Shown: positions 1 through 25,744 of the stretch, in pieces
How the letters are laid out: each line of letters opens with the position of its first letter
Position numbering within the stretch: position 1 is the stretch's first letter
Source of the DNA: a virus
IMG/VR virus record: IMGVR_UViG_3300023174_000367
Span: 1-37,201 of that record
DNA: 37,201 nt
Direction: 5' to 3' (one strand)
Made by a program: the position numbers and the translations under genes
The notes under the pieces: generated by a model
What the model saw: only the letters and a program-made list of their open reading frames with translations
Databases searched by the model: none
Told to the model about the DNA's origin: nothing

Positions 1-146
1 AACGTAAAGCCGATAGCAAGAAAGTATACCAATTGGTCGGTTGGTGTCGTTTCAATAAGAAATATCAACTACAAGATGTCGAAGACATCAGCCGTTGTTT
101 ATACCTGAAAGGTATGACTAAAGTATTTACTGGTTTCACCTATTAA
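1..146 (+). CDS. 3' end of a hypothetical early gene (partial)
   Basis: The frame is open from the window edge (first full codon at base 3) to TAA at 144-146, giving the last 47 residues of a basic protein. No family is recognised. It contains the pentapeptide DVEDI, encoded by the same palindromic 15 bases that encode DVEDI in the gene at 2174-2380. The next gene follows through a hairpin-type ribosome-binding cassette. The 5' part lies outside the window, so function cannot be judged. Confidence 0.7.
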   Translation, partial: RKADSKKVYQLVGWCRFNKKYQLQDVEDISRCLYLKGMTKVFTGFTY

Positions 147-167
147 TTCCTGAAAGGAAACAACATG
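147..167 (+). promoter_or_regulatory. Hairpin Shine-Dalgarno cassette, copy 1
   Basis: TTCCT (147-151), loop GAA (152-154) and AGGAA (155-159) form a five-pair inverted repeat. The right arm is the Shine-Dalgarno of the ATG at 165. Here the upstream stop (TAA, 144-146) lies just before the hairpin. This is the most complete form of a cassette repeated through the first 3.3 kb. Confidence 0.75.
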
Positions 168-323
168 ACAGATGATGAAATCATCCATTACTATGACACC
201 CACTTAAACTTAACTCTTAAAGAGTTATCGCTAATGACTGGCAAGTCAGTAGCGGAGCTAAAGAAATTGCTCTTGTCCGATTGGACAAAGAATGCAAAGA
301 AAATTGTTAAACAACTTTCCTGA
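165..323 (+). CDS. Small hypothetical early protein, 52 aa
   Basis: Starts at the ATG after cassette 1 and ends at TGA 321-323, which lies inside the next cassette hairpin. The 52-residue product (MTDDEIIHYY...) is helical in character. A stretch reading LTLKELSLMTGKSVAELKKL resembles a small helix-turn-helix, suggesting a DNA-binding or adaptor role; this is inference only. It belongs to the tightly packed early gene string and is too short for a firm family call. Confidence 0.7.
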   Translation: MTDDEIIHYYDTHLNLTLKELSLMTGKSVAELKKLLLSDWTKNAKKIVKQLS

Positions 324-337
324 AAGGAAACAAAATG
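317..337 (+). promoter_or_regulatory. Hairpin Shine-Dalgarno cassette, copy 2
   Basis: TTCCT (317-321), GAA loop and AGGAA (325-329) precede ATG 335. The stop codon TGA (321-323) of the upstream gene sits at the top of the left arm and in the loop, so a terminating ribosome would cover and open the hairpin and expose the SD. This suggests translational coupling. Confidence 0.75.
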
Positions 338-520
338 CGTAAACGAATGATAGCTAAATGGGTTGGCAAAGATGCCAACACTGGAATGCCCATAAGAGTG
401 GGTGATGAAATTGTGTATGACACTGAGACACGTAAAGCCTATCATGATGATAGGGAACATGGCGATGACAATCTAAAGATTGATGGCAAGCCTTTGTTAA
501 CACTTAAGGAAAAAGTATGA
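335..520 (+). CDS. Hypothetical early protein, 61 aa
   Basis: Starts at the ATG after cassette 2; its TGA (518-520) overlaps the next ATG (517) as ATGA. The product is short and hydrophilic, with a central segment GMPIRVGDEIVYDTETRKAY that looks like a small beta-barrel strand pair. No family is recognised and no signal peptide or membrane segment is seen. Confidence 0.7.
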   Translation: MRKRMIAKWVGKDANTGMPIRVGDEIVYDTETRKAYHDDREHGDDNLKIDGKPLLTLKEKV

Positions 521-750
521 ATGACAGAGATAAAATGATGTATGGCTGTGACATTGAAGCTTTCAAGGAAAGCGTCAAAGACAGCTTCACTTACAGGACA
601 ACAGGTGGTTACATGATAATAGCTTCGCTATTGTCTGATGCTCAGGAACAGCTAGCACATGGCGATGACTTCGGTGCTAGGCAAACGCTGAACAAAGCGA
701 AAGCTTTGATCTTTGATATGGCTGATGGGAATATGACGTTCACTTCCTGA
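517..750 (+). CDS. Hypothetical early protein, 77 aa
   Basis: Begins at ATG 517 overlapping the previous stop, with AAGGA about ten bases upstream. Ends at TGA 748-750, which lies inside cassette copy 3, so its C-terminus (FTS) is set by the cassette sequence. The C-terminal half (SDAQEQLAHGDDFGARQTLNKAKALI) is alpha-helical and resembles a tetratricopeptide-like hairpin. Function is unknown. Confidence 0.7.
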   Translation: MNDRDKMMYGCDIEAFKESVKDSFTYRTTGGYMIIASLLSDAQEQLAHGDDFGARQTLNKAKALIFDMADGNMTFTS

Positions 751-764
751 AAGGAAACAAAATG
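744..764 (+). promoter_or_regulatory. Hairpin Shine-Dalgarno cassette, copy 3
   Basis: TTCCT (744-748), GAA loop and AGGAA (752-756) before ATG 762. The upstream TGA (748-750) is embedded in the hairpin exactly as in copy 2. Confidence 0.75.
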
Positions 765-1154
765 AAAGTGTTTGTATACTTTAATCTACACAAGAAATGC
801 TTTAGCATTAAGGCTCTTGAGGGTGCTATGAAGGGGCGAGTGGTTGCCCACAGAGATAACGTGTTGCTCTTCCACACCACGTTCAAGGTGTCACAAGCTG
901 GTAGAGAGCGTGTCCTGCGAGAGAAGCGCAAGAATGTCCATGCTGGTGTCTGTGGCACTTGGTATGACAGTGGCAACGATCATGGCACGTTGTCCTCTGT
1001 GAAAGAACGTGGCGAATTAGTTACCTACAATCCCTACAAGTATAACACTTTTGTATACAAAGAGGATGAGAGCACAGCAGACACTGCTTGGTGTGCTGGT
1101 CTGTTTACAGACACTGAAACCCGCAGAGCTAGCATTTATGCTTGGTCTTCCTAA
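762..1154 (+). CDS. Conserved phage hypothetical protein, 130 aa
   Basis: The N-terminus (MKVFVYFNLHKKCFSIKALE) and the stretch RVLREKRKNVHAG are of a type I recognise from phage genomes of Gram-negative hosts, where it has no assigned function. The protein is basic, with no membrane segment or obvious catalytic motif. It starts after cassette copy 3 and ends at TAA 1152-1154, inside cassette copy 4. It is one of the longer members of the early string. Confidence 0.75.
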   Translation: MKVFVYFNLHKKCFSIKALEGAMKGRVVAHRDNVLLFHTTFKVSQAGRERVLREKRKNVHAGVCGTWYDSGNDHGTLSSVKERGELVTYNPYKYNTFVYKEDESTADTAWCAGLFTDTETRRASIYAWSS

Positions 1155-1166
1155 AGGAAACACATG
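1148..1166 (+). promoter_or_regulatory. Hairpin Shine-Dalgarno cassette, copy 4 (AA-loop variant)
   Basis: TTCCT (1148-1152), two-base gap and AGGAA (1155-1159) before ATG 1164. The embedded stop is TAA (1152-1154) instead of TGA, so the loop has changed with the stop codon while both arms are kept. Confidence 0.7.
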
Positions 1167-1361
1167 GAAATTATCATTGAAATCAAGAACGTCTACGGAG
1201 TAGAAAAGTTCTATCCAATCTGCGATAAAGCAAAGCTTTTTGCTCACATCGCTAACACCAAGACACTGACACCTGAAGTGTTGGTGGATATCACAAAGCT
1301 AGGTTACCAAGTAACCTTACATCAGCAAGATATGCTCTCTTTCCTAAAGGAAACACAATGA
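1164..1361 (+). CDS. Conserved early hypothetical protein, 65 aa
   Basis: The product begins MEIIIEIKNVYGVEKFYPIC and includes FAHIANTKTLTPEVL, a pattern I associate with small unassigned phage proteins. The C-terminus reads LKETQ, the in-frame translation of the next gene's AAGGAAACACAA Shine-Dalgarno region. TGA (1359-1361) overlaps ATG 1358 as ATGA. No functional motif is seen. Confidence 0.7.
   Translation: MEIIIEIKNVYGVEKFYPICDKAKLFAHIANTKTLTPEVLVDITKLGYQVTLHQQDMLSFLKETQ
1341..1360 (+). promoter_or_regulatory. Hairpin Shine-Dalgarno cassette, copy 5 (read through in frame)
   Basis: TTCCT, AA and AGGAA (1341-1352) lie wholly inside the upstream coding frame and encode FLKET. The start is ATG 1358, with the stop overlapping it. 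The same cassette is thus used without its internal stop. Confidence 0.65.
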
Positions 1362-1732
1362 TTGGCATCAATGTAAGGAACACTGATGTTCCTTTTGCTG
1401 ACCTGATTGTGGATGGTTTAAAAACCATTGAAACAAGGGAAAGCAAGAGCTTACATCCCTATGTAGGTAAGAGAGTGGCGATTGTCAGGACAGGGCAAGG
1501 CAAAGCCTTTGCCATTGGTGAAGTCACCATCACTGGTTACATTTGGACAAACAACAAAGTTGTTTTTAATCGCTTCTTAAGTAAGCATTTTGTACCGAAA
1601 GGCTCTGCCTTTTATATCAAGGAAGGCAAAGGAAAATATTTATATTGTCTGAAAGATGCTGTGAGGTATGAGACACCGATTGCCGTAGGCAAAGGTATTG
1701 TGGCTAGACAACTCCTAAAGGAAACAAAATGA
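1358..1732 (+). CDS. ASCH-domain (PUA-like) protein
   Basis: A 124-residue single-domain protein. Residues about 10-30 (FADLIVDGLKTIETRES) match the ASCH signature of an 'I..G.KT.E.R' helix and strand. They are followed by a beta-rich segment (VGKRVAIVRTG, AFAIGEVTITGY) typical of the PUA-like barrel. ASCH domains bind RNA or modified nucleosides, and some members are nucleases or amidohydrolases; which activity applies here cannot be read from the sequence. The C-terminus LLKETK comes from the next gene's ribosome-binding site. Both ends overlap neighbours by ATGA. Confidence 0.75.
   Translation: MIGINVRNTDVPFADLIVDGLKTIETRESKSLHPYVGKRVAIVRTGQGKAFAIGEVTITGYIWTNNKVVFNRFLSKHFVPKGSAFYIKEGKGKYLYCLKDAVRYETPIAVGKGIVARQLLKETK
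1713..1731 (+). promoter_or_regulatory. Hairpin Shine-Dalgarno cassette, copy 6 (four-pair variant)
   Basis: TCCT (1713-1716) and AGGA (1719-1722) flank AA ahead of ATG 1729. The outer T-A pair is lost (CTCCT on the left). It is read in frame by the upstream ASCH gene. Confidence 0.6.
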
Positions 1733-1971
1733 AAGTACGAATGAGAGATGACTTGGCAGAGGATGGCTTAGCCATTCCTGCATCTAGAACATTCAAAGAC
1801 TATGACACTCAGGTTGATGTTGTCTATGTCAATGCAGAAGAACTAGTAGACGCTGTCATTGGTAATGACAGTGCTGACCCTGATGACCATGCCTTTTGTT
1901 ATGTTCAATTAAAAGATGGCAGGGCTTTGTATTTTTTGAGTGTCGATTTAGATTTTGAGGAGACAACATGA
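1729..1971 (+). CDS. Acidic hypothetical protein, 80 aa
   Basis: A very acidic product rich in Asp and Val (DYDTQVDVVYVNAEELVD) that ends FEETT, where the tail is encoded by the next ribosome-binding site. It starts at ATG 1729 overlapping the ASCH stop and ends overlapping ATG 1968. No recognisable domain. Confidence 0.65.
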   Translation: MKVRMRDDLAEDGLAIPASRTFKDYDTQVDVVYVNAEELVDAVIGNDSADPDDHAFCYVQLKDGRALYFLSVDLDFEETT

Positions 1972-2177
1972 CCTATGCTGACTATGTCACCACCTACTTC
2001 ACTGAGGACAACATCAAGTTGTTCTACAACGAAGTTGTGTTAGGTGGTGAAGACGATTTCTATAAGAACGAAGTGAGTATGTTTATTGGTTGGCTGACAG
2101 GGTTGTCAGTTGACCATCGCTTCTTTGACCCCTTGTGTAACAAGTTTTTGAAAGCAACATATAAGGAAACAACATGA
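1968..2177 (+). CDS. Hypothetical early protein, 69 aa
   Basis: Starts at ATG 1968 with GAGGAG five bases upstream, and ends YKETT with TGA overlapping ATG 2174. The composition is aromatic and acidic (MTYADYVTTYFTEDNIKLFY). No domain is recognised. Translation is probably coupled on both sides through the four-base ATGA overlaps. Confidence 0.65.
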   Translation: MTYADYVTTYFTEDNIKLFYNEVVLGGEDDFYKNEVSMFIGWLTGLSVDHRFFDPLCNKFLKATYKETT

Positions 2178-2380
2178 GCACAGTGATAGCAAACATCGAA
2201 GATGATAACAACCTAAACTATTCCTACCAATTGTGTATGGAAGATGATGGTACATACTACCTATGGAGAAGCTCAGGCTTCTTGAATGGTAGGGTTGTGT
2301 TCAAGGATGTCGAAGACATCAAGGATGCCCTGCGTTTGATGATGGACTATGTGTTTGAATATGAGGGAGTGATAGCATGA
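2174..2380 (+). CDS. Hypothetical early protein with DVEDI palindrome, 68 aa
   Basis: Starts after AAGGAAACAAC. The product is acidic. Its KDVEDIK segment is encoded by GATGTC-GAA-GACATC (2306-2320), identical to the palindrome in the partial gene at the window start. No family is recognised. TGA overlaps ATG 2377. Confidence 0.65.
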   Translation: MSTVIANIEDDNNLNYSYQLCMEDDGTYYLWRSSGFLNGRVVFKDVEDIKDALRLMMDYVFEYEGVIA

Positions 2381-2571
2381 AACTTTACTACTGCGTTGGG
2401 TACTGGAAAGACAGCAATGATCCTTTCCACTACATGGTAGTGGCTGATGGTGTGTGGGACGGCATCGAAGATGCAAAGGATGAGCGCATTTTTTATTACA
2501 CCGATGGTGTTCTTCCTGTCATCGGTGATCATGGGGATTTTGTGATAACAAGTGCAGAGGAAACAGAATGA
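2377..2571 (+). CDS. Hypothetical early protein, 64 aa
   Basis: A small product, MKLYYCVGYWKDSNDPFHYM..., with strongly beta-like spacing of aromatics. It ends AEETE, read from the following ribosome-binding region. A GCATC-GAA-GATGC inverted repeat (2462-2474) lies within it. Function unknown. Confidence 0.65.
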   Translation: MKLYYCVGYWKDSNDPFHYMVVADGVWDGIEDAKDERIFYYTDGVLPVIGDHGDFVITSAEETE

Positions 2572-2834
2572 AAACATTCACCATCATTGTTTACAATGAC
2601 CCCTCCCATGCATGGGGTAAAGTGAAACGTAAAGTGCTGGACAACTTAGGCTTAAGCCAAGAGATATCAAGCTACAGCTACCAGTACAAGGACAACGTGT
2701 ACCTAGAAGAGGATGCTGACTTGTCATTGGTATGTCGGCACTTGCTGTTTAATTCCGATGTACAAATTAAATTTGTAGAGAAGCACACCAACAGAGACAG
2801 TCGCATTCGTTCTTATGAAAGGTATGTAGCATGA
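2568..2834 (+). CDS. Hypothetical early protein, 88 aa
   Basis: Begins at ATG 2568 with GAGGAAAC upstream, overlapping the preceding stop. The predicted product is mixed alpha/beta (MKTFTIIVYNDPSHAWGKVK) with a basic C-terminus (SRIRSYERYVA). No known domain is recognised. It ends by ATGA overlap with the next gene. Confidence 0.65.
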   Translation: MKTFTIIVYNDPSHAWGKVKRKVLDNLGLSQEISSYSYQYKDNVYLEEDADLSLVCRHLLFNSDVQIKFVEKHTNRDSRIRSYERYVA

Positions 2835-3013
2835 CACGTTACCAACTACGTTGGAAGTTTACAAACGATCATGAATGGGTGAAGACCTTTGACTCTGAAG
2901 AAGAGGCAATGACTCATGCTCTGATTTTTGGCTTGTACACCCACCCATCTGTTGTGGAAGTGGAGATTAGGGTTTGTCCCTATTCACAATCTCTTGTAAG
3001 CACAGATAATTGA
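2831..3013 (+). CDS. Hypothetical early protein, 60 aa
   Basis: The product MTRYQLRWKFTNDHEWVKTF followed by DSEEEAMTHA has the strand-helix pattern of small phage proteins that repeat this layout across the early region (compare the gene at 4115). It ends at TGA 3011-3013; the next gene is 31 bases downstream behind a hairpin cassette. No function is assigned. Confidence 0.65.
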   Translation: MTRYQLRWKFTNDHEWVKTFDSEEEAMTHALIFGLYTHPSVVEVEIRVCPYSQSLVSTDN

Positions 3014-3028
3014 AAGCCTCAACACCCC

Positions 3029-3047
3029 TCCTGAAAGGAAACACATG
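3029..3047 (+). promoter_or_regulatory. Hairpin Shine-Dalgarno cassette, copy 7
   Basis: TCCT (3029-3032), GAA and AGGA (3036-3039) precede ATG 3045. The upstream stop lies 16 bases before the hairpin, so here the cassette is free-standing. Confidence 0.65.
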
Positions 3048-3227
3048 AACTACACCGACATGATGAAACTCTTTGCCAACAAGGTGAAGCAGTACACACC
3101 AACACAATGTAGGTTTGCTCTCAAAGACATTGAAGAATGTCTCTCCATCCACAAAGATGACAGCAACTATGTTGCTAAGCTGAACTGTGAACGTGATGCT
3201 CTGTTAGATAAACTTTACCTCTCCTGA
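3045..3227 (+). CDS. Hypothetical early protein, 60 aa
   Basis: An almost entirely helical, charged product (MNYTDMMKLFANKVKQYTPT..., with two Cys in QCRFALKDIEEC). It ends LYLS at TGA 3225-3227, inside the next cassette. It resembles small phage helical-bundle proteins, but no family is identified. Confidence 0.65.
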   Translation: MNYTDMMKLFANKVKQYTPTQCRFALKDIEECLSIHKDDSNYVAKLNCERDALLDKLYLS

Positions 3228-3241
3228 AAGGAAACAAAATG
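3222..3241 (+). promoter_or_regulatory. Hairpin Shine-Dalgarno cassette, copy 8
   Basis: TCCT (3222-3225), GAA and AGGA (3229-3232) before ATG 3239, with the upstream TGA (3225-3227) embedded. This is the last clear full copy in the early region. Confidence 0.7.
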
Positions 3242-3475
3242 ATACTCTATTTTTATCGACAAGATATGTATGGCTCATATGCTGAAGCCAATGCAAAGGA
3301 TGCACTTAGGGAAATCAGTGGACTCACCACTGAATATCGTAGTCTTTATGACGTAGGTGGTGACTTGGCTGACACATTGGAAGCCATCCATAAAACATCG
3401 AAGATGATGGATGAAAAGTCTGTCATTCGGTATGTGCTGTTAGATGATGATGGCACATTCTTAGATGCCTGTTAA
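3239..3475 (+). CDS. Hypothetical early protein, 78 aa
   Basis: Starts after cassette copy 8. The product MILYFYRQDMYGSYAEANAK has a strand-then-helix pattern with an acidic C-terminal half. It carries a CATC-GAA-GATG inverted repeat near 3393-3403, in a different reading frame from the similar repeats upstream. No function is recognised. TAA 3473-3475 is followed by AAGGAG for the next gene. Confidence 0.65.
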   Translation: MILYFYRQDMYGSYAEANAKDALREISGLTTEYRSLYDVGGDLADTLEAIHKTSKMMDEKSVIRYVLLDDDGTFLDAC

Positions 3476-3484
3476 GGAGACAGT

Positions 3485-3664
3485 ATGAAAAAGTTTAAAG
3501 TGTTTGCCTGTTACACAACCTATTGCACAGTGGAGGTGGAAGCAGAAGATTCTGACCACGCTGAAGCTTTAGCTAAGGAGATTGACGGAGGTCAATTCAT
3601 TCCCTCAAAGGAATGTTTTGATTGGCACATCAACCATGCACAAGAGATTAAGGAAACACCATGA
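3485..3664 (+). CDS. Small hypothetical early protein, 59 aa
   Basis: ATG 3485 is preceded by TTAAGGAGAC, a good Shine-Dalgarno. The product begins MKKFKVFACYTTYCTVEVEA and continues SDHAEALAKEI, a beta-beta-alpha layout common in phage accessory proteins. It ends IKETP, again the in-frame reading of the next AAGGAAACACC ribosome-binding site, with TGA overlapping ATG 3661. Confidence 0.65.
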   Translation: MKKFKVFACYTTYCTVEVEAEDSDHAEALAKEIDGGQFIPSKECFDWHINHAQEIKETP

Positions 3665-4104
3665 ACGGACATTACGAAATCAAACCTGTTGATGTGGGCT
3701 ACATACCTACAGACTTTGGCATCAAAGACAAGAACGACTGTGCCATCAGAGCACTAGCCAATGTGTCCACTATGACATACCCCGAAGCCCATGCAAGGAT
3801 GACACAATTGGGTAGACGTAAGAACAGAGGCACACCTTGGGCAGCTTTACACACTGCCTATACAGAGGCTGGTGCTAAGGACGTTGCCTACTATGGTAGC
3901 AAGATGGTGCGTTTCTCTACTAAGCACAATGTCAAACACTTTGACAAAGGCTTTACCCTCAAAACCTTTGTGTCTAAAAGACCAAAGGGCAGGCACATTG
4001 TGCTGGTTAAGGGTCATGCCTTAGCTGTGTGTAATGGTGCTGTCATTGATACGTTTGCTAGCAGGGCAGGTAAGCGTGTGATAGCGGTGTATTCTTTTGA
4101 TTAA
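3661..4104 (+). CDS. Possible papain-like cysteine peptidase-fold protein, 147 aa
   Basis: An N-terminal NDCAIRALA motif puts Cys27 at the start of a helix. Downstream are RHIVLVKGHALAV (His119) and GAVIDTF (Asp130). This Cys, then His on a strand, then Asp order is the layout of small papain-like or transglutaminase-like folds, including bacteriocin-processing and phage peptidases. What is seen is the spacing and the local motifs; catalysis is inference. Substrate is unknown, and targets could be host proteins early in infection. It overlaps the upstream gene by ATGA and is followed by a 44-residue gene. Confidence 0.6.
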   Translation: MNGHYEIKPVDVGYIPTDFGIKDKNDCAIRALANVSTMTYPEAHARMTQLGRRKNRGTPWAALHTAYTEAGAKDVAYYGSKMVRFSTKHNVKHFDKGFTLKTFVSKRPKGRHIVLVKGHALAVCNGAVIDTFASRAGKRVIAVYSFD

Positions 4105-4114
4105 GGAGCAGGTT

Positions 4115-4249
4115 ATGTATCAAGTGTTCAACCACAACGACACCTTTTTAGGTGAGTTTGTTACCAAAGAAGAAGCAGAGGCTGAAGCCATGTTTTACAT
4201 GGAGCAGACAGGCAATGTTGCTTATTATGTGTTTGCGAAGATCACATAA
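4115..4249 (+). CDS. Small hypothetical protein, 44 aa
   Basis: ATG 4115 follows TTAAGGAGCAGGTT. The product (MYQVFNHNDTFLGEFVTKEE, ending YYVFAKIT) has the compact beta-alpha-beta pattern of many tiny phage proteins. It lies between the putative cysteine peptidase and the secreted hydrolase gene. Function unknown. Confidence 0.6.
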   Translation: MYQVFNHNDTFLGEFVTKEEAEAEAMFYMEQTGNVAYYVFAKIT

Positions 4250-4265
4250 GCCTTTATAACAGGGT

Positions 4266-4706
4266 ATGATTAAACTCTTATCCACAATAAGCTTAGCTTT
4301 GTTCATGTCCCCAATGGCACAACCTCCCTTATCCACACACAATGAAGCAGACTTTCGTTGTATGGTAGCAACACTTTACCATGAGGCAAGGGGTGAGGGT
4401 GTGGTAGGTATAGAGGCTGTTGCCTCTGTCATCATGAACAGGGCTAAGCAATCACGTAAGTCTGTGTGCTCAATTGTTTACGAAAGAAAACAATTCTCAT
4501 GGACACACGTAACAAAGGACAGACGTATCAAGGGTAACATCATGGACATACTATCCATCACACACAAGGCACTGAGCGGTGTGCTAGTGGATGTAACACA
4601 TGGTGCTACGTTCTATCATGCAACCTACGTCAAGCCCTCATGGGCTAAGCACAAGGTGCTGACAGTGCAGATTAACAAACACATTTTCTATAAGGAAAAA
4701 GCATGA
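4266..4706 (+). CDS. Secreted SleB/CwlJ-type cell-wall hydrolase
   Basis: A 146-residue protein with an N-terminal hydrophobic signal-like segment (MIKLLSTISLALFMSPMA). A single Hydrolase_2 (SleB-like) domain follows. Its hallmark YHEARGEG places the likely catalytic Glu40; then come AVASVIMNRA, KQFSWT, GATFYHATYVKPSW and the C-terminal HIFYK. This family cleaves peptidoglycan glycan strands. The ribosome-binding site before ATG 4266 is weak. It sits in the early strand, far from the M15 endolysin at 31433-31897, so it may be exported early or act as a second lysin. Confidence 0.85.
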   Translation: MIKLLSTISLALFMSPMAQPPLSTHNEADFRCMVATLYHEARGEGVVGIEAVASVIMNRAKQSRKSVCSIVYERKQFSWTHVTKDRRIKGNIMDILSITHKALSGVLVDVTHGATFYHATYVKPSWAKHKVLTVQINKHIFYKEKA

Positions 4707-4900
4707 GCGATGTGCCATATGAAGAGGGCTTTAAGCGTGGCTATTTAGGGCTAGCTTTCATAGAAAGATATGCTGAGTACAGCAAGGAAGATATCAGTTG
4801 TAAGAAGGGCTATACAAATGGCGTTGCTCAGGCAAAGCTTGAGCTTGACAAGTGGAATGGCTTTGTAGATAATATGAAACGTGAAAGGCAGACAGCATGA
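4703..4900 (+). CDS. Hypothetical protein, 65 aa
   Basis: Begins by ATGA overlap with the SleB-type gene after AAGGAAAAAGC. It contains a repeated G-[FY]-x-[RN]-G pattern (EGFKRGYLG, KKGYTNGVA) like that in ribosome-modulation-factor-like phage proteins. No function is assigned. Confidence 0.65.
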   Translation: MSDVPYEEGFKRGYLGLAFIERYAEYSKEDISCKKGYTNGVAQAKLELDKWNGFVDNMKRERQTA

Positions 4901-5109
4901 TTAGTGAAATTGATATCAACGATTGGGACAAGCAAGATCCCATCCCTCTGTACAGTGTACCTAACAAAAGCTATGTACAAGTGGGGGATGAGACGCTGTT
5001 CTTTGATCACATTGATGGCATGTATAGCTTTTGTATGAATGCAGCCAACGAAGTTGTACACATAGCAGCATTTACTGTAGTCGTTCCACTTAAACGAAAG
5101 GATATATGA
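4897..5109 (+). CDS. Hypothetical protein, 70 aa
   Basis: Overlaps both neighbours by ATGA. A small soluble product (MISEIDINDWDKQDPIPLYS), predicted mostly beta, with no recognised motif. It is part of the same polycistronic early string. Confidence 0.65.
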   Translation: MISEIDINDWDKQDPIPLYSVPNKSYVQVGDETLFFDHIDGMYSFCMNAANEVVHIAAFTVVVPLKRKDI

Positions 5110-5294
5110 AGTATTTTGAAAAGCGTTTTAAGCTTTTTGGTAGGGCATACCTACTGCGAAAGCGTGTCTATAAGACTAGACCCATTGAACTCATCCGTGG
5201 CGAGTGCTTCAATGCACTGCACATAGGTAAACTCACTCTCCTGTGGGCAAGAGACAATCCAGCAAGACCAATCCCGACAAGTTTTGTCAGGTAA
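5106..5294 (+). CDS. Basic hypothetical protein, 62 aa
   Basis: The last gene of the early string. ATG 5106 follows AAAGGATAT. The product is strongly basic (MKYFEKRFKLFGRAYLLRKR...), consistent with nucleic-acid or membrane-surface contact, but no family is recognised. It ends at TAA just before a promoter/hairpin region. Confidence 0.6.
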   Translation: MKYFEKRFKLFGRAYLLRKRVYKTRPIELIRGECFNALHIGKLTLLWARDNPARPIPTSFVR

Positions 5295-5301
5295 TTTCAA
5301 C

Positions 5302-5319
5302 AGGGGTTTGACAGCCCCT
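5302..5319 (+). repeat. Inverted repeat AGGGG/CCCCT around the -35 box
   Basis: Arms 5302-5306 and 5315-5319 flank an eight-base centre that contains TTGACA. The repeat is followed by TTTCT, so it could form a weak transcript-end hairpin for the upstream genes. As DNA, it could be an operator over the -35 box. The sequence does not decide between the two. Confidence 0.5.
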
Positions 5320-5337
5320 TTCTAACATGGCTATAAT
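5308..5337 (+). promoter_or_regulatory. Strong sigma70-type promoter
   Basis: TTGACA (5308-5313) and TATAAT (5332-5337) are both perfect consensus hexamers, separated by 18 bases. It lies in the only sizeable gap of the left half and points at the DUF932 gene, whose ATG is at 5410. The leader contains an ACAAC/GTTGT inverted repeat near 5347-5363. Host RNA polymerase recognition is the natural reading. Confidence 0.8.
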
Positions 5338-5409
5338 TTGTAGCCACAACAGCATCAGTTGTTGTTCACCCCCTCACTTCCCACCACCGTTCATATAAGG
5401 AGCATCCAC

Positions 5410-6294: not shown

Positions 6295-7128
6295 ATGGAA
6301 AAAGATAAAGCAATTGGTATGTTCATGGGACTGTTCGTTGGCGATGCATTGGGAGCGCCTTTGGAATTCATGCGTCCCCCTGAGTTTGACAAAGTGACAG
6401 ACATGATTGGTGGTGGTGTTCACTCTGCTGAGATAGGCGAGTGGACAGATGATGGTGCTATGGCAATGTGCATTGCAGATGCATATGCTACAAGAGGTAA
6501 GTTTGCTCCGCAAGAAATTGCACTCAACTTCAAGACATGGGCAAAGACAGGACACTTTGGCACAAGGGATTATCGGTTTGACATTGGACGCACTTGCTTT
6601 GAAGCCATTGAAGGCATGACAACAGAGCAACCATATCAGGGCAGGACAGATGGTAGAGCAAGTGGTAATGGCTCCATCATGCGTATTGCTCCTGTTGTAT
6701 TAGCCAACCACAACAAACCCAACATTGGTTTAGGTGAAGCCATTGCTGTGTCTCTCATGACACACGGCAACACTGACACTGTCCATTACATGGCAGCTTT
6801 TGTGGCTGAGCTGTATGCTGGTAAACAGCTTGATGAGTTTACTCATTTGATAGATGATGAGTATGACATTCGCAAAGGCAAAGGTTCTATTATGCATGCA
6901 TACAATGCAGCATGGGAATGTGTCGATGTCACCTTTAGCTTCCAAGATGCACTGGTCAGGGCAGTTAACAAAGGCTATGACGCTGACACCGTAGGTGCAG
7001 TGACAGGTATGCTAGCTGGTAGACACTATGGATACAGTGCTATACCAAAGCGTTGGCTTAACAAGCTGATGAAGCATGATGAACTATTGCAGATGGCAGA
7101 AACACTTTATGAAATGGGTGGGCAATGA
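6295..7128 (+). CDS. ADP-ribosylglycohydrolase (ARH/DraG family)
   Basis: A 277-residue protein with the family's metal-binding blocks in order: GDALGAPLEF (16-25), WTDDGAMA (TDDG at 51-54), GNGSIMRIAP (124-133), THGNTDT near 157 and GYDADTVGAVTGMLAG (227-242, with the DADT core). ARH/DraG enzymes use two Mg ions to remove ADP-ribose from arginine or other acceptors, or act on related ADP-ribose conjugates. All the key acidic motifs are present, so an active enzyme is expected. It lies early in the genome after a strong promoter. It may erase host or phage ADP-ribosylation marks, or serve NAD metabolism; the target is unknown. Confidence 0.88.
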   Translation: MEKDKAIGMFMGLFVGDALGAPLEFMRPPEFDKVTDMIGGGVHSAEIGEWTDDGAMAMCIADAYATRGKFAPQEIALNFKTWAKTGHFGTRDYRFDIGRTCFEAIEGMTTEQPYQGRTDGRASGNGSIMRIAPVVLANHNKPNIGLGEAIAVSLMTHGNTDTVHYMAAFVAELYAGKQLDEFTHLIDDEYDIRKGKGSIMHAYNAAWECVDVTFSFQDALVRAVNKGYDADTVGAVTGMLAGRHYGYSAIPKRWLNKLMKHDELLQMAETLYEMGGQ

Positions 7129-13266: not shown

Positions 13267-13689
13267 ATGGCTGATGAAAAAAAGAAGTTGAAGATTAAGT
13301 GCGACATTTATTGGGCGCAATTGAACAAGATGAATGAGATGAGCGGTGCTTATCAAGTTAACTTGTGTAACTTGTCTGATGCAGCAGCAGAAGCATTGGA
13401 AGAAATGGGTCTGTCTGTTAATCAAGACAGTGAAAAGAAAGCTGACATGGGTAAGTATATTACCTGTAAATCTAAGAACAAACCAATGAAAGCATTCGAT
13501 GTTGATGGTGATGAAATCACTGAAGACATTGGTAATGGTAGCAAGGCTAAGGCTTTGGTTGGTACATATAATTGGACATACAAAAATAAAAAAGGCGTTA
13601 GCGCATCATTGATCAAGCTGGTTGTCACTGACTTGGTTGAATACTCAGGTGGTGGTGGTATCTCTGCTGATGACGAAGACGTTCTGTAA
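13267..13689 (+). CDS. Putative single-stranded DNA-binding protein
   Basis: The start ATG 13267 is chosen after ATAAAGGAAATTGAA. The 140-residue product has a basic beta-rich body (KKKLKIKCDIYWAQLNKMN, YQVNLCNLSD, GKYITCKSKN, LVGTYNWTYKN) and a glycine-rich linker. It ends in an acidic tail, SADDEDVL, like the interaction tails of T7 gp2.5 and SSB. The position between polymerase and exonuclease is where T7-like phages keep this gene. The OB-fold assignment is inferred from composition and context, not a signature motif. Confidence 0.75.
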   Translation: MADEKKKLKIKCDIYWAQLNKMNEMSGAYQVNLCNLSDAAAEALEEMGLSVNQDSEKKADMGKYITCKSKNKPMKAFDVDGDEITEDIGNGSKAKALVGTYNWTYKNKKGVSASLIKLVVTDLVEYSGGGGISADDEDVL

Positions 13690-13700
13690 AGGAAAACAAA

Positions 13701-15586: not shown

Positions 15587-15950
15587 AAACGGCGGTCAGT
15601 GGACTGATGCTAGATTCAGAAGCTTCATTACGTCTGCTTTAAGAGCAGCGTCACGTAAGTGGCCTCCGAAATATACAGCTCTTAAGGCTGCATTGATTGG
15701 TAGAAAGACTAATAAGAAGACAGGACTAATGGCACAGCATTACAAGTGTGCTATGTGTAAGGAAGAGTTTGTAGCAGCAGATGTACAAGTAGACCATATA
15801 CATCCAGTAGTTGATCCCTCTGTAGGGTTTATTAGTTGGGATGTATATATTGATAGAATGTTTTGTGAGTTGCCTGATTTGCAGGTATTGTGTAAGCCTT
15901 GTCATAAATTAAAAACTGATGAGGAAAAATCTGAAAGGAAAAAGAAATGA
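15513..15950 (+). CDS. HNH endonuclease
   Basis: The core reads HYKCAMCKEEFV, then VQVDHIHPVVDP and a terminal LQVLCKPCHKLKT: an HNH beta-beta-alpha metal site (DH..HP) with two Cys pairs holding structural zinc. The middle RNGGQWTDARFRSFITSALR is typical of small phage HNH proteins. ATG 15513 gives 145 aa, but it lies inside the preceding gene with no clear Shine-Dalgarno. A later non-ATG start near TTG 15561 would give a product closer to the core, so the N-terminus is uncertain. A role in DNA processing, packaging or host DNA breakdown is possible. Confidence 0.8.
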   Translation: MISSHRKSLLPICLTSLTKLSPKNRNGGQWTDARFRSFITSALRAASRKWPPKYTALKAALIGRKTNKKTGLMAQHYKCAMCKEEFVAADVQVDHIHPVVDPSVGFISWDVYIDRMFCELPDLQVLCKPCHKLKTDEEKSERKKK

Positions 15951-16495
15951 AGATTGAACTGACCCAATATGAAGAGAACGAAGATGGAAGTGTCAATTGC
16001 CATGTAGACATGGATAAAGAAGCCACACATCATTTAATCAACTACGCTTTAGTGAACATGTTAACTAAGGCTGTGGAAGAAGGTAAGCTGTACACCCCTG
16101 ATACCTATGTAGCTGAAGTTGAGGCTGAAGAAGAAGACGCTAACTACTTCTATGATGAAGATGGAGACGTTGAATACTACTATGTAGAAGACGAAGACGC
16201 TTGGTATTACTACGATGAACATGACGATGATTGGTTCATTGTAGAAGACGAAGAAGAGGAAGAGGACGGTAAAGTTTGGGTGGCTCTTGAATCAGAACAA
16301 CTGGAATCCCTCCTTGTGGCTGAGTTGAAAAACTGTTTAGTAAATACCTATAACAATTCATACCTCATCTTCCCAGAGGATGTTGATCACAATATTCATG
16401 TACGCAATGCATGTAAAACTTTGCTTGGTCATTATATGATTTCCAGTGAAGCAGATGCTTATCTAGATGAGGTGGCTGCTACCTATGAGTGTTAA
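15947..16495 (+). CDS. Acidic protein with four decapeptide aromatic/acidic repeats
   Basis: 182 residues. The N-terminal body (MKIELTQYEENEDGSVNCHV) and C-terminal body (VWVALESEQLESLLVAELKN...) are ordinary. Residues 57-108 form an extremely acidic insertion. Within it a ten-residue unit repeats about four times: YFYDEDGDVE, YYYVEDEDAW, YYYDEHDDDW and FIVEDEEEEE (67-106). Acidic proteins of this kind can mimic DNA or bind basic proteins, but here that is only a hypothesis. It overlaps the HNH stop by ATGA and the ThyX start by 11 bases. Confidence 0.75.
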   Translation: MKIELTQYEENEDGSVNCHVDMDKEATHHLINYALVNMLTKAVEEGKLYTPDTYVAEVEAEEEDANYFYDEDGDVEYYYVEDEDAWYYYDEHDDDWFIVEDEEEEEDGKVWVALESEQLESLLVAELKNCLVNTYNNSYLIFPEDVDHNIHVRNACKTLLGHYMISSEADAYLDEVAATYEC

Positions 16496-20154: not shown

Positions 20155-20186
20155 AAGTATACAATGTATGTTTTTAAGTATACAAT
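20155..20186 (+). repeat. Direct repeat AAGTATACAAT next to tRNA 3' end
   Basis: Two perfect 11-base copies (20155-20165 and 20176-20186), 21 bases apart or two helical turns, each centred on palindromic GTATAC. They start one base after the tRNA CCA and end at the stop of the 1852-residue gene. Between them ATAC-AAT-GTAT followed by TTTTT may act as a weak terminator or tRNA processing signal. An attachment or protein-binding site is also possible. Confidence 0.6.
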
Positions 20187-23100
20187 TACTTCCTAGAAGC
20201 TAGTCCCTTTTGATCAGGTGTTGGATAGCGCATCTCTGTAGGCTCAGCAAACACACTCTTACCCTCATCTATTCTTTTCTTTGCAAAGGCTTGTGCCTTT
20301 GAATAGATGGCATCAGTTGCTTCCTTACCCGCCAATAAATGATTAAGCTCAGCTTTATTTAATGTAGGCACAATGAGTGGATGCTCTACATTCTTTCCTT
20401 TGTATGTAAACTCAGAAGATATTTCTGTAGACACACCGCCTTCTTTATTTGGAAGCGCACCAAGATATCCCTTACCTTTAGCACCTTCACCACTATTGCG
20501 TAAACCGTATGGGGCTAGTCCTTCTTCTGTACTATCTTTTTTCAAACCTAAGCCACCACCTTTATTAAGCTTGGGTGTAATATCTCTGATAGTCTCAATG
20601 GCTTTCTTTTGTTCTCCTGCTGAGTACAAAATCGGATCTGTTTTCTGTAAAGCTTTCTTAAGCTCCAACAACATAGCAGGTTTAGGACTAGTGTTAAAAG
20701 CTTCTTGGCTCATCTCATCCCTATAAATATTTAGCAGCTTGTTAATACTTGAATTAAGTTCGCTTTGGTACTTCTCTAAAGCAGAATAATAGTTTTGACC
20801 ATAGCCTGTTTTAGTTGATGTCACCTCTGAAGACTTAGCAATTTCATTAAACACAGTGCGAATATCTTTGTATGCTTGATAGGCATTAGGTGCAGTTTTG
20901 CTAGCCAGTCCTTTAGTAGAGCTGTAATTAAAGTCATTAAGCCTAGCTAACGCATCATTTATTTTTGTTTCTCTAGCACTTATCTTCCCATACTTCTCAC
21001 TAACACCAGCTATGTCTTGTGTCACCTTAAGCTTATCTGCTTCAACAAAAACATCTTCTGTTTCTTTAAATAGCTGTGAGCGGGGCAAGCTCAATGGTCT
21101 AGCCACATTAGGACTACCAGTGATTGTTCTTGCTAGATAGTTTAAATCCTGTTTATCATATGCATCAAGAGGCATGTTCACTCTTCTGAATTCATATTCA
21201 GCATATGGTATTTCCACTTGAGAAATATTCTTAGGATTTTTGCCACCAAACTTTTCAATGTAATAGTTTAAGTTGGGATCTTTGGTAAAGGAGATGGCTC
21301 CAGCATTCAATTCAAAGTGAGACATCTTGTTTGTCTGAGGATTGTAGAAACCTCTAGCAAGTTTTTCAGGAGTGCGCTCTGATCTATTACCATGATAAAG
21401 AATAACAGGAGGTGTATCTTTATATTTAACACGCAAAGCATCAAGCTTGTCTTGGTATTTAGAAGCAAAAGAAGCAAAGTCTTCTAAAGAAGCAGCATCA
21501 TCTGCCTCTACTTCTTTTCCTTTAGCTGCTCTGTATTCACCTTGTGCAACAGCTATAACATCTTCATCCAAAGGTTTAGCTCCCTTAGTAAAGGAAAGCT
21601 CATCAAGCTTGTCAACTAAAACAGGGAAAGTGTTCTGTCTAATTTCTCTGATATTTTGTAATACTTCTTTTCTTCTGAATGTATCACCGCTTACCAAAGG
21701 AAGCTTGTTAAAATCTGGTGCTCTAGATAAAGCTCTTTTTTCTAAATCATTAATTGGTGTGAACACAATATCAGGACTAACAAGGGTTAAGTCTTTTAGT
21801 GTTGGCGGTGTAGCTGTACCTTCAGGTGCAATCTCTTTCAGCTTATTTAAGAAACTCTTTTGATAATCATCAGGGAAATCAGTTTTAAATTTATCTAGCT
21901 GGTACTGCGATCCCATGCTAGTCTTTAACAAAGACTCAGCTTGGTTAAGTTGCTCTGTGGAATATTTATTAATCTCATCCACAAAGCTTGGCTGCACTGT
22001 TTCTTCAGTCTTACTGACAACAGGAGCAGGCTCCATTGGTGTAGCAGGAACAATGACTTCTTTCTTTGGGGCAGTCTTTGTAACAGAAGGAGGCACAGAT
22101 ACAGGAGTTCCTTGTTGCTTCAACAAGTCTTCTGTTTGCTTCACAGCAGGAGCAACTTCCACCCCTGCTTTGGTAGCCATGTCTGTCACCTTCTTAAGCA
22201 AGTCATCAGCAGACTCAGTGATAGACTTTTTAGCCACCTTAGTTGCACTCTTACCAATAAGAGTTTCAGCCATCTGTGTAGCCACACCACCAACACCAAA
22301 TGCTGGTTGTTTCTTTAGAGCAGCAGCAATAGAAAGAGCAGACACATAGTCCTTAGTTTCTGCTAAGTCTTTCTTCATGTTCTGTTTATAAAACTCTGCC
22401 GTAGCTCTCTTAACTTCAGGAGCAAGTTTGCTATATTTAATTTCAAACAAACGTGCTTGTTCACCACGATTAAAGGCATCAGCCTCTGCTTGTTTACTAG
22501 CAATATCTTTAGCATTTGTTTGCGCCCAAGTAAGAAGATTTTGCATAGCAATTTTTCTAACGTCAGGGCCAGCTTGCTTGTAGAAGTCTGTTTCTTTTAA
22601 CACATCAAATGTATCAAGCAACAGAGGAGCCATCACCTTACGAGCACTAGCATCTACAATCTTATCTCCAGTGGAGGTAAAGATTTTATTGTTTGGTATT
22701 TTAAGTTTAAGTATCTCTTCTTCTAAAGGCTGTGGTGCTCCCTTGATAGTGATACCAGTGAATATCTTCAAAGGCCCTGCATCATTAAACGCAGCTTCTT
22801 TTCTTGTAGCTGGTTGATATACAGGAAGCTCTTGTTTAAGAACAGGTGTCTTCTTAATAAGCTGATTCTTCATAGAAGAAAGAAAGCCTTCTTCACCAGC
22901 AGGAATCTGATAAGCATCTCTTGGTAGATTTTCATCTCTATCAATAGCACCAATCAAGTCACTGATCTGTTGAACAGGAATTAATGCTCTACCAAAGTAT
23001 TGACCTGCCCACTCACCAAAGAATGTAGCCACCTTCTGATCAGCACTTCCCTCACCTGTTTGCATATTAGACACTGACTCAGCAAACTTATCTCCCAACC

Positions 23101-25744
23101 ACGCAGAAGTACCGGCAGGGGCTTTGAAACCTGTCATTGCTTCTAAGAATTCTTTAGTGCTGAATTCATCTGTTCTAGCTTTCTCAAGCTTAACCAAGTA
23201 GTCACCCATAGCTAAGAAAGGAGCCATAGGAAACAACGCTCTAGTGTCTACTAAACTTCCATCAGGATTCTTTATATCGTACCAATTAGTGTCTTGGTTT
23301 TCTTGTCTGTATTTATAAGCTGCATAGATGGCAGCAGTACCTACAGCACCCTTAGATGTGTTCTCTAAGCCCTTCATTAAATATCTCTGACCTTCTTCAT
23401 TGCCTGCTCTTAACATAGAAGAGCCTTTAGCTATGTCAGCAGCACCAGAAAAGACACCCATAGGGCTATGCTTGTATGTCCACGACATGGCATTAGCCAT
23501 AAAGCGAGGGAAAGGAACGAGGGTAGAACCAACAGGGCCTAATGATTCCACAAACTTAACTGCATGGAACATTACACCTTGTGTTGGCATCTTGCTAAAT
23601 GTAGCAGCCAATGCTTCATCTGTAGCATTCTTTAGCACATCAAAAGGAATATTCTTTCCTTGTGACATGATGTCATACATATCAATACCAACACGGCTAA
23701 GTTGTTTCTCAACAGAAGCAGTGAAGATGGCTTTTCTAAAGAAAGCATCTTGAGCTACGTTCAATGTGTTAGCCATCTGTGCCACTTTAGAAAGTTCAGT
23801 GGCTTCGTTCTCACCCACTGTGCGTAAGATACGACCACGCAGAGTAGGAGAACCAGCAAGAAGTCTTTCAGCTACATCAGAAGATAGGTTGCTTTGTCCT
23901 AAATAGAAAGCTGTTCTAACGGCATCATCATAGACACCTTTAAGACCACCAGTAAAACTACCTGTCAATGGTTTACCGCTGCCAAGTTCATAGGCTGTTT
24001 TACCCATACGATATAGAGAAGACTCAATGGCTTCTGATGCTGCACCAAAAGTTACAACCATACCACCTGAAAAAGCATTGCGTACAGTGGTAGCAACTTG
24101 CGACACCATCAAGGCCTTAAGCTCTCTATCTAGTCTCATTGATAGATCATACAGACCAGTGAATGCAGATGTCAGTGTGTTACGTTTACCATACATCAAA
24201 TCCACTTCTTTAGCAGCAGCAGGATCAATGTTCTTAAGTTTGTTTTGTAAACGAGCAAGAACAGAATAGGCTTGCAATGTACGACCAGCGTCCCCTGCTG
24301 TTGTTCTATTCATACGAGCAAACTCTTCTGGTGTAACTCCAGCATTAGCTAGAGCATCACGAAGAATAACATCATCAATGTTCTCAATGTTCATGAAAAC
24401 ATTCTTAACAGCATCACTAATCTTCTGATCAGCTTTAGGAGCAAGCTCAGGAACTTGTGACCAAACATTGCTTGCAATCTGTGCAGCCTTCTTGTTCACA
24501 TCATTTCTTATTTGCATCTCAGCAATAGATGTAGGATCTCCTTCTTTATTAAGAAGCTTCCTACCTTCAAAGATGTCATAAGCATCTTCAAGCTGTGTCT
24601 CTGTTGCTGCTTTAGGAGCCACCTTTACTTCAGGCGGTGGTGTAGATACATCCATCTTAGGCTCTATACGGCCTCTAGCAGCCTGTTGACGCTCTGCTAA
24701 TATGGCATCTAACTCTCCCACCTTTGTCTTACCTCTAGCAAGCCTAGCGGCTGTTAACAAGCCACTTGTTTCTAGTGTTCCACCAATAGCACCGATAGCT
24801 CCAGCAGTGCCTGCCTCAGTGAGGTTGATTCCTTCAGCAACTTTCTTTTCTTCTGCCACTAAGTTTGCTTCAATTTCCTTAATTTGATCAGCCACTTCTT
24901 GCTGCTGTTCTGGTGGAAGCTGTGCCACCACTTGCTTAGCTTGTTCAACCTTGGCTCTTGTGTTTTTGTTAGCAGCGTCTTGTGTTACAAGTTTTCTACG
25001 CTGTTCTTGTACGTTACCTAAAGCAGCGCCTGTTCCTTCAACAGTGGGAACAGTGAGTGCAGCAGTAGTACCAAGCCTACTAGCTAGTGCTGCTCTAATT
25101 CCTTTTGTGGCAGCTTCTTTAACAAAGACATTCTTAGCTACAGTACCAGCACCTAAAGAGATGGCTGTAGTTGGATCACTAATAACACTACCCAATGCAT
25201 CAAGAACAGGGGTAAATCCTTTCTGTCCTTTATCACTGAAATAGCTTGCAGTGTTGTCAAAGATGTCATAAGCTTTCTTAGCTTTTAACAAGTCTTCTTT
25301 ACTAGCATTGTTTAAATATTGTATCTCTTGTGTGCCTGAAATAAGGTTACCAAAAGATAGCATACGCATGTGGCTAGCCCACCGCTTAACATAATCATCT
25401 TTGGTTTCATTAGGAAGCATAACTCCCTCTTTACCAAACCTAGCTGTGGCGTAGTCATTAATGGCTTTAAAGTTGTCTGGATTTTCAGATAAGTCTTTGA
25501 AAGAAAATTGACTCTCCTTAATCTTCTTTTCTCTTTCTAGATTGCTAGCAGCAGCTTGAATGCTACTTTGTTTAGCTGTCTCTACTAGAGAAAGCTTAGG
25601 TGCGGGAACAGGAGCAACTTCTGCTACAACAGCATCAGCAGGTGGTGTCCAGCTACTTGTTACAGCATCAGCAGGAGGCTTCCATCCACCAGTGGAGGGA
25701 GCAACAGTGGCTTCTACAGCGTCAGAAGGAGGAGTCCATGCCAT
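20186..25744 (-). CDS. Giant putative internal virion / polyvalent protein, 1852 aa
   Basis: Start ATG 25744 follows AAGGGTAAGAAATAAAC. Residues 1-45 hold three WxPPxDAV repeats. A helical, partly hydrophobic region (about 180-350 and 520-1000, e.g. GLLTAARLARG and STLVPFPRFMANAM) suits a protein ejected into the host. A linker (1200-1250) is Pro/Val rich. Residues about 1445-1575 look ADP-ribosyltransferase-like: LYHGN (1449-1453), SFTKDPNLNYY (1485-1495) and EDVFVEADKLKV (1563-1574). The C-terminus (1728-1852) has GLGLKKDSTEEG, GKGYLGALPNKEGG and LIVPTLNKAEL, a module I recognise at the ends of other phage proteins. It is the last gene of the leftward block, the expected place for internal virion proteins. 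Not an N4-type RNA polymerase. Confidence 0.75.
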   Translation of the reverse strand: MAWTPPSDAVEATVAPSTGGWKPPADAVTSSWTPPADAVVAEVAPVPAPKLSLVETAKQSSIQAAASNLEREKKIKESQFSFKDLSENPDNFKAINDYATARFGKEGVMLPNETKDDYVKRWASHMRMLSFGNLISGTQEIQYLNNASKEDLLKAKKAYDIFDNTASYFSDKGQKGFTPVLDALGSVISDPTTAISLGAGTVAKNVFVKEAATKGIRAALASRLGTTAALTVPTVEGTGAALGNVQEQRRKLVTQDAANKNTRAKVEQAKQVVAQLPPEQQQEVADQIKEIEANLVAEEKKVAEGINLTEAGTAGAIGAIGGTLETSGLLTAARLARGKTKVGELDAILAERQQAARGRIEPKMDVSTPPPEVKVAPKAATETQLEDAYDIFEGRKLLNKEGDPTSIAEMQIRNDVNKKAAQIASNVWSQVPELAPKADQKISDAVKNVFMNIENIDDVILRDALANAGVTPEEFARMNRTTAGDAGRTLQAYSVLARLQNKLKNIDPAAAKEVDLMYGKRNTLTSAFTGLYDLSMRLDRELKALMVSQVATTVRNAFSGGMVVTFGAASEAIESSLYRMGKTAYELGSGKPLTGSFTGGLKGVYDDAVRTAFYLGQSNLSSDVAERLLAGSPTLRGRILRTVGENEATELSKVAQMANTLNVAQDAFFRKAIFTASVEKQLSRVGIDMYDIMSQGKNIPFDVLKNATDEALAATFSKMPTQGVMFHAVKFVESLGPVGSTLVPFPRFMANAMSWTYKHSPMGVFSGAADIAKGSSMLRAGNEEGQRYLMKGLENTSKGAVGTAAIYAAYKYRQENQDTNWYDIKNPDGSLVDTRALFPMAPFLAMGDYLVKLEKARTDEFSTKEFLEAMTGFKAPAGTSAWLGDKFAESVSNMQTGEGSADQKVATFFGEWAGQYFGRALIPVQQISDLIGAIDRDENLPRDAYQIPAGEEGFLSSMKNQLIKKTPVLKQELPVYQPATRKEAAFNDAGPLKIFTGITIKGAPQPLEEEILKLKIPNNKIFTSTGDKIVDASARKVMAPLLLDTFDVLKETDFYKQAGPDVRKIAMQNLLTWAQTNAKDIASKQAEADAFNRGEQARLFEIKYSKLAPEVKRATAEFYKQNMKKDLAETKDYVSALSIAAALKKQPAFGVGGVATQMAETLIGKSATKVAKKSITESADDLLKKVTDMATKAGVEVAPAVKQTEDLLKQQGTPVSVPPSVTKTAPKKEVIVPATPMEPAPVVSKTEETVQPSFVDEINKYSTEQLNQAESLLKTSMGSQYQLDKFKTDFPDDYQKSFLNKLKEIAPEGTATPPTLKDLTLVSPDIVFTPINDLEKRALSRAPDFNKLPLVSGDTFRRKEVLQNIREIRQNTFPVLVDKLDELSFTKGAKPLDEDVIAVAQGEYRAAKGKEVEADDAASLEDFASFASKYQDKLDALRVKYKDTPPVILYHGNRSERTPEKLARGFYNPQTNKMSHFELNAGAISFTKDPNLNYYIEKFGGKNPKNISQVEIPYAEYEFRRVNMPLDAYDKQDLNYLARTITGSPNVARPLSLPRSQLFKETEDVFVEADKLKVTQDIAGVSEKYGKISARETKINDALARLNDFNYSSTKGLASKTAPNAYQAYKDIRTVFNEIAKSSEVTSTKTGYGQNYYSALEKYQSELNSSINKLLNIYRDEMSQEAFNTSPKPAMLLELKKALQKTDPILYSAGEQKKAIETIRDITPKLNKGGGLGLKKDSTEEGLAPYGLRNSGEGAKGKGYLGALPNKEGGVSTEISSEFTYKGKNVEHPLIVPTLNKAELNHLLAGKEATDAIYSKAQAFAKKRIDEGKSVFAEPTEMRYPTPDQKGLASRK

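Follow-up and report, generated by a model that had tools for sequence, protein, structure and literature searches.

A self-pairing, start-associated ribosome-binding-site hairpin at early genes of an uncultured, mainly freshwater phage lineage

Start-Associated Sequences (SAS; consensus 5'-GGGATAGGAGCCC) are repeats of Cluster K mycobacteriophages that were described in 2011 and whose function was still called untested in 2025 (PMC3203893, PMC12699233). They are ~13 bp long and place a Shine-Dalgarno (SD) core a few nucleotides before the start codon, in one orientation, at non-structural genes belonging to a subset of gene families; some hold the stop codon of the preceding gene, and their authors proposed a role in translation initiation (PMC3203893, PMC12699233). 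In the extended SAS, 17-bp inverted repeats lie upstream of about half of the copies (PMC3203893, PMC12699233). Here we describe a repeat of comparable placement in virus record IMGVR_UViG_3300023174_000367 of IMG/VR (positions 1 to 37,201, the whole 37,201-nucleotide stretch being "the window"), where TTCCT(G)AAAGGAAACA-ATG occurs at eight early-gene starts within 147-3241. Because relatives carry compensatory changes in the two arms of this hairpin, we take pairing to be part of its function. We tentatively propose that the hairpin serves as a start-associated translation-initiation module, supplying early genes with a modular ribosome-binding site that folds on itself.

Using the ASCH-domain open reading frame (ORF) of the window as a query, we retrieved eleven relatives, whose early blocks carry the same hairpin at many starts. 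Scanned for exact matches to TTCCTGAAAGGAAACANNATG, IMG/VR yielded 99 stretches, and a set of bacterial and archaeal genomes gave 17 single hits in unrelated taxa, which we read as background that points to no host. The hairpin-bearing phages are one uncultured, mainly freshwater lineage with HMO-2011-like early and replication genes; many of their contigs are partial, and their gene calls are automatic.

Some of these relatives carry TTACC-GAA-GGTAA or TTTCC-GAA-GGAAA, in which both arms are altered together; in the TTACC class, pairs 3 and 5 are changed on both sides. When pairs 3 and 5 were left open as N in the IMG/VR scan, the top three of 256 combinations were CG/TA (165 sites), AT/CG (11) and TA/CG (6), all fully paired, with the background below them. 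Sites picked by their right half alone showed the same correspondence, AGGAA being preceded by TTCCT in 194 of 250 cases and GGTAA by TTACC in 20 of 22, and at sites with the right half AAGGAAAC, outside the search pattern, the left arm was strongly conserved while other SD sites stayed near background. Counted pair by pair, 34 cells were changed on both sides, against 10.5±2.5 in shuffled data (reached in 0 of 500 shuffles) and 2 in the best slid register; since the sequences are related by descent, the shuffle result is not a probability. The classes alternate even at one orthologous position, the GP88 start, where TTCCTGAAAGGAA, TTTCCTAAAGGAA, TTACC[GA]AAGGTAA and TTTCCTTAAGGAA are all found, and they also alternate within single phages. 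The outermost pair of the stem is looser than the rest, and in contigs outside the lineage outer pairs 1-2 show no pairing preference, as chance matches would. The initial annotation of the window had named arm covariation in relatives as the check on its proposal; the left arm turns out to be conserved with the SD arm and to covary with it, which rules out a plain SD repeat. Judged by sequence comparison, these changes show that selection keeps the hairpin paired.

Covariation alone cannot separate an RNA stem from a DNA palindrome, and a two-fold symmetric site present in many copies, in one orientation, at early genes might also be an operator for a dimeric repressor. Such an arrangement would resemble the L5-type stoperators of Cluster A mycobacteriophages, short repeats that likewise occur in many copies and in one orientation close to gene joins; stoperators are DNA sites for the repressor and act on transcription (PMC3203893). 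Unlike stoperators, however, the hairpin is tied in position to the SD and start codon, at SD spacing before ATG, and its asymmetric loop and tail always stand in the sense orientation. Moreover, RNA fits better than a dimer-bound DNA site because the loop, and with it the arm spacing, may be either 3 or 4 nt long and some pairs are G-U (GTTC/GGAC in MW202701). We therefore rate a DNA-level operator lowest among the explanations considered here, as highly improbable.

The initial annotation had listed eight junction hairpins in the window, and we found each of them where it had been placed. They are given here with one putative promoter.

147-164, plus strand: hairpin TTCCT-GAA-AGGAA followed by ACAAC, preceding ORF 165-323; the TAA (144-146) of a truncated left-end ORF lies just 5'.
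317-334, plus strand: hairpin TTCCT-GAA-AGGAA, preceding ORF 335-520; TGA 321-323 of ORF 165-323 lies inside.
744-761, plus strand: hairpin TTCCT-GAA-AGGAA, preceding ORF 762-1154 (L5 gp82 family); TGA 748-750 of ORF 517-750 lies inside.
1148-1163, plus strand: hairpin TTCC-TAAA-GGAA, preceding ORF 1164-1361; TAA 1152-1154 of ORF 762-1154 lies inside.
1341-1357, plus strand: hairpin TTCC-TAAA-GGAA, preceding ORF 1358-1732 (ASCH domain); the preceding ORF ends in an ATGA overlap.
1713-1728, plus strand: weak copy TCC-TAAA-GGA (3 bp), preceding ORF 1729-1971; the preceding ORF ends in an ATGA overlap.
2982-3010, plus strand: putative promoter TTCACA-17-GATAAT feeding the 3029 hairpin, within the 3' end of ORF 2831-3013; contigs L004, L005 and L059 have the same arrangement.
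3029-3044, plus strand: hairpin TCCT-GAA-AGGA, preceding ORF 3045-3227; the prior stop (3011-3013) lies outside, 15 nt 5'.
3222-3238, plus strand: hairpin TCCT-GAA-AGGA, preceding ORF 3239-3475; TGA 3225-3227 of ORF 3045-3227 lies inside.

The core TTCCT-GAA-AGGAA, which the annotation had given as common to all eight junctions, is literally present at three of them, as the exact 13-mer TTCCTGAAAGGAA at 147, 317 and 744, and the other five differ. A 4-bp stem is formed by CTCCTGAAAGGAA at 3028 and 3221 (core 3029 and 3222); at 1148 and 1341, TTCCTAAAGGAA lacks the G and has a 4-nt loop, so that the five-pair TTCCT/AGGAA register is impossible there. Retention of both arms holds only in part at 1713, where the copy is TCCTAAAGGA and the stem just 3 bp. 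The claim that the preceding stop lies within the hairpin at 317, 744, 1148 and 3222 was borne out at all four sites. At up to two mismatches the 13-mer has seven matches in the window, compared with a mean of 1.24 and a maximum of 4 in shuffled sequence (none of 100 shuffles had as many as 7), and the five matches with no or one mismatch all lie on the sense strand immediately 5' of an ORF start. The two-mismatch matches at 102 and 3601 fall within coding sequence; neither is a copy of the hairpin. Two further, degenerate SD hairpins are possible in the window, at 13677-13700 (TTCT-GTAAA-GGAA, ORF 13701) and 4678-4702 (TTTTCT-ATAA-GGAAAA, ORF 4703); the pairing of the latter candidate is not kept in relatives.

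Across the lineage contigs, TTCCTGAAAGGAA lies 2-11 nt 5' of a start codon in 238 of 242 distinct copies, TTCCTAAAGGAA in 63 of 64 and TTACC[GA]AAGGTAA in 24 of 28, with a mode of 5 nt. Because most contigs had been selected with a first-class 21-mer, matched exactly, the first figure partly reflects that selection; the second and third classes, and inexact copies of the first, were unselected, and their figures do not. After deduplication and trimming to the motif block, 67 contigs carry the hairpin at 1 to 10 starts each and 356 in total, in one orientation, at SD position and limited to a subset of non-structural or early genes. It precedes 41 of 42 copies of the GP88-family gene and 22 of 22 copies of family 7; some other families never carry it, and it is never present at the integrase and primase-helicase orthologs. 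More distant GP88 relatives (below ~67% identity, N-terminal query) were rejected as bearers, the module being absent from the GP88 start in all but contig L236. Further palindromes that precede ATG in these contigs (CAAGTG..CACTTG, ATATG..CATAT and AAGAC..GTCTT) were also set aside, as their near-identical flanks mark them as orthologous coding positions rather than reused modules.

The hairpin thus resembles SAS in its position, its single orientation, its restriction to a gene set and its occasional inclusion of the preceding stop. Its sequence, TTCCT(G)AAAGGAA, is unrelated and does not match the consensus given above. SAS are described as asymmetric; their GGG/CCC ends could pair (predicted -3.6 kcal/mol), but deviating copies from five genomes gave no clear compensation, with one outer-pair G-U and the rest broken at one pair at least, and we rejected the Cluster K repeat as a covarying hairpin. 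Here, in contrast, double changes support pairing, and the SD lies in a stem arm, not in the loop. Because of the unrelated sequence and the missing compensation in the SAS copies checked, we file the hairpin as SAS-like and not as a member: it works like SAS and is a new, self-folded variant. For such a start-associated repeat, compensatory changes also make a pairing role open to two-sided mutation.

We found no paper on the hairpin motif in the literature searched, and Rfam gave no family above gathering score in window 1-5400. A BLAST search of named phages with a 30-mer gave short partial matches only, many in unrelated phages, and no named isolate with the module, which is also absent from those parts of Limnohabitans phage DC31, HMO-2011 and HTVC103P that were read. 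The variant GTTCTATAGGACACA of MW202701 was rejected as a wider family, its exact pattern having no match in viral contigs. Hairpins of the GTTCTATAGGACACA type with a G-U pair do precede several starts in MW202701 itself (L219, 14399-15417) and in contigs L007 and L012, as a possible further variant.

Predicted stems are weak at 37 °C (-1.6 to -3.9 kcal/mol) and stronger at 15 °C (about -3.0 to -6.4 kcal/mol, most copies about -4 to -6.4). In 120 nt of native context the hairpin core is predicted to form with a median probability of 0.90, and opening the SD costs 4.2±1.1 kcal/mol, compared with 2.4±1.4 with a random left arm. In E. coli, the stem threshold for blocking initiation reportedly lies near -6 kcal/mol (de Smit and van Duin). 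Against that value the stem at 37 °C is too weak for the known initiation block, and the modelled energetics fit better with a uniform site that the ribosome can open than with a tight block.

The initial annotation had read the hairpin as a translational-coupling unit, in which a ribosome terminating on the preceding gene would unfold the hairpin and thereby license the next one. The SD does lie in a local hairpin near the preceding stop, as in coupled intercistronic hairpins and synthetic bicistronic designs, and the stop falls inside the motif at four of the eight window sites and at 29% of 396 relative sites; ATGA overlaps are rarer at motif starts than at other starts (4% versus 18%), and in lake-like cold the stem would be a firmer barrier. 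However, the reading frame alone predicts a share of about one third, making 29% unremarkable, and the stop is not phased beyond this expectation; by automatic calling it lies more than 60 nt upstream at 36% of sites. In addition, unlike those hairpins and designs, the module is repeated lineage-wide and has a second setting besides operon junctions, namely TTGACA-N17/18-TATAAT, ~30 nt containing a small stem-loop, the hairpin and ATG. The distance from -10 box to hairpin is 29-31 nt in most of these cases, and a consensus promoter at the fixed distance is found at 30 of the 39 sites of the TTACC class and at 24 of the 222 of the TTCCTGA class, compared with 0.9% of random positions. The GP88-family gene, with its near-constant motif, often stands directly behind its own promoter and short leader. 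Since the hairpin is used behind promoters with no intervening gene, it needs no upstream ribosome. Given this promoter-proximal use, the 29% share and the weak stem, coupling is not supported as the general role, and we consider it improbable, although coupling may occur at sites whose preceding stop falls inside the hairpin.

At the 3029 site of the window, the promoter-like pair is weaker than the consensus of the relatives. The leader stem-loop ahead of promoter-proximal copies has a variable paired sequence; compared with the inverted repeats of extended SAS, it is shorter, lies behind the promoter and has no fixed sequence. As a separate observation, a larger cassette recurs at several genes per phage (L393:3491, L394, L398, L017:5942 and others); it consists of a consensus promoter, a leader stem-loop whose stem covaries, the hairpin ribosome-binding site and ATG.

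MS2 coat protein and T4 RegA act on translational operators, RNA targets that overlap the start of a gene or gene set. The hairpin is placed similarly, and a phage or host RNA-binding protein might clamp it and switch the early-gene set off or on. A common start-overlapping hairpin on a defined gene set would suit this, as would an invariant loop end, SD and ACA tail beside variable paired arms, a pattern akin to structure-plus-loop recognition; a weak stem is expected where a protein must stabilise it, and among the products of the block is an ASCH-domain protein, whose fold has been proposed to bind RNA. The binding protein is hypothetical here, however, the ASCH-protein family occurs in just 9 of the 67 sampled contigs (partial contigs), and conservation of loop and tail could reflect SD and spacer alone. 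We regard such an operator as possible, if rather unlikely. A more specific version, in which ~5-10 unrelated early mRNAs form a translational regulon, switched as a set by one phage-encoded trans-acting factor that recognises their SD stem-loop, with the module doubling as a swap point for new early genes, seems to us unlikely.

The initial annotation had also suggested a portable unit and homology patch for gene shuffling, and this idea gained support from joins that fall exactly inside the motif. In contig L005 the left flank of the 147 hairpin is joined to the right flank of the 317 hairpin, the gene between being missing, and in L076 the left flank of 317 is joined in the same exact manner to the right flank of 744; gene order has changed as well, with gene 1164 relocated in L006 and genes 335-517 in L004. 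Of the motif junctions, 50% have a broken adjacency, compared with 35% of the other junctions (0 of 100 label permutations), in contig pairs that are not independent. Had the repeat been kept primarily because homology at gene joins permits exchange of small genes, such joins and breaks would be expected. But reordering alone is equal at motif and other junctions (12.6% versus 11.8%), selection for exchange would not keep pairing via double changes, which cut homology between classes, and selection for intact genes could also place joins at gene boundaries. We find this primary role very doubtful.

In the self-folded module that we favour, reused at about 3-10 small early genes in a sampled contig, a 4-5 bp mRNA stem-loop would present the SD in its 3' arm and loop, and an A-rich spacer (ACANN) would lead from there to ATG. 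The ribosome-binding site would act at the RNA level by folding on itself, so that initiation would carry an equal, modest cost for each early gene irrespective of the sequence upstream, and the modelled stem would be weak enough for the ribosome to open unaided. A gene could then move with its module between operon positions and still be translated, and recombination at the shared 16-21 nt would be a consequence that aids cassette turnover. Several points weigh against this proposal. The main class is tight in sequence, which could also reflect recognition by a protein. Between close relatives the left arm is absent at some orthologous starts (in L004 and L059 at gene 1164, and in the window at gene 2174); the hairpin is therefore not essential at each gene. 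Passive insulation rests on a small fall in predicted spread (1.43 to 1.06) with a higher mean cost, and within the block the excess of breaks at motif junctions is not clear (0.100 versus 0.029±0.045 in permutations, not significant). If the proposal holds, the module illustrates how small early genes can be exchanged in a phage lineage with no need to rebuild the signals for their expression, and the exchanged genes are likely to be host-takeover genes.

The window carries the small-gene block on the plus strand, an integrase, a primase-helicase, a PolA-type polymerase and a ribonucleotide reductase, and, on the minus strand, tail-fibre-like and other large genes. The polymerase has its top matches in Pelagibacter and Roseobacter phages, the HMO-2011 genome opens with a GP88-like gene, after which come an L5 gp82-like gene and integrase, and the sole near DNA match to the window is MW202701 (Manatee Spring; 75% over the reductase). 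By gene order and best matches, the window phage is probably akin to HMO-2011-type podoviruses. An ADP-ribosylglycohydrolase-family gene (6295-7128) lies between the early block and the integrase. Three proteins gave no PHROG match: a strongly acidic tyrosine/aspartate-rich protein (15947-16495) and two very large ones of 1852 and 866 aa (20186-25744 and 27974-30574, both minus strand). In Limnohabitans phage DC31 (L218, 18425-26500, minus strand), many small genes share a different start cassette composed of a TATAAT-like box, AAGGCTTCAACA, TAGGAG and ATG.

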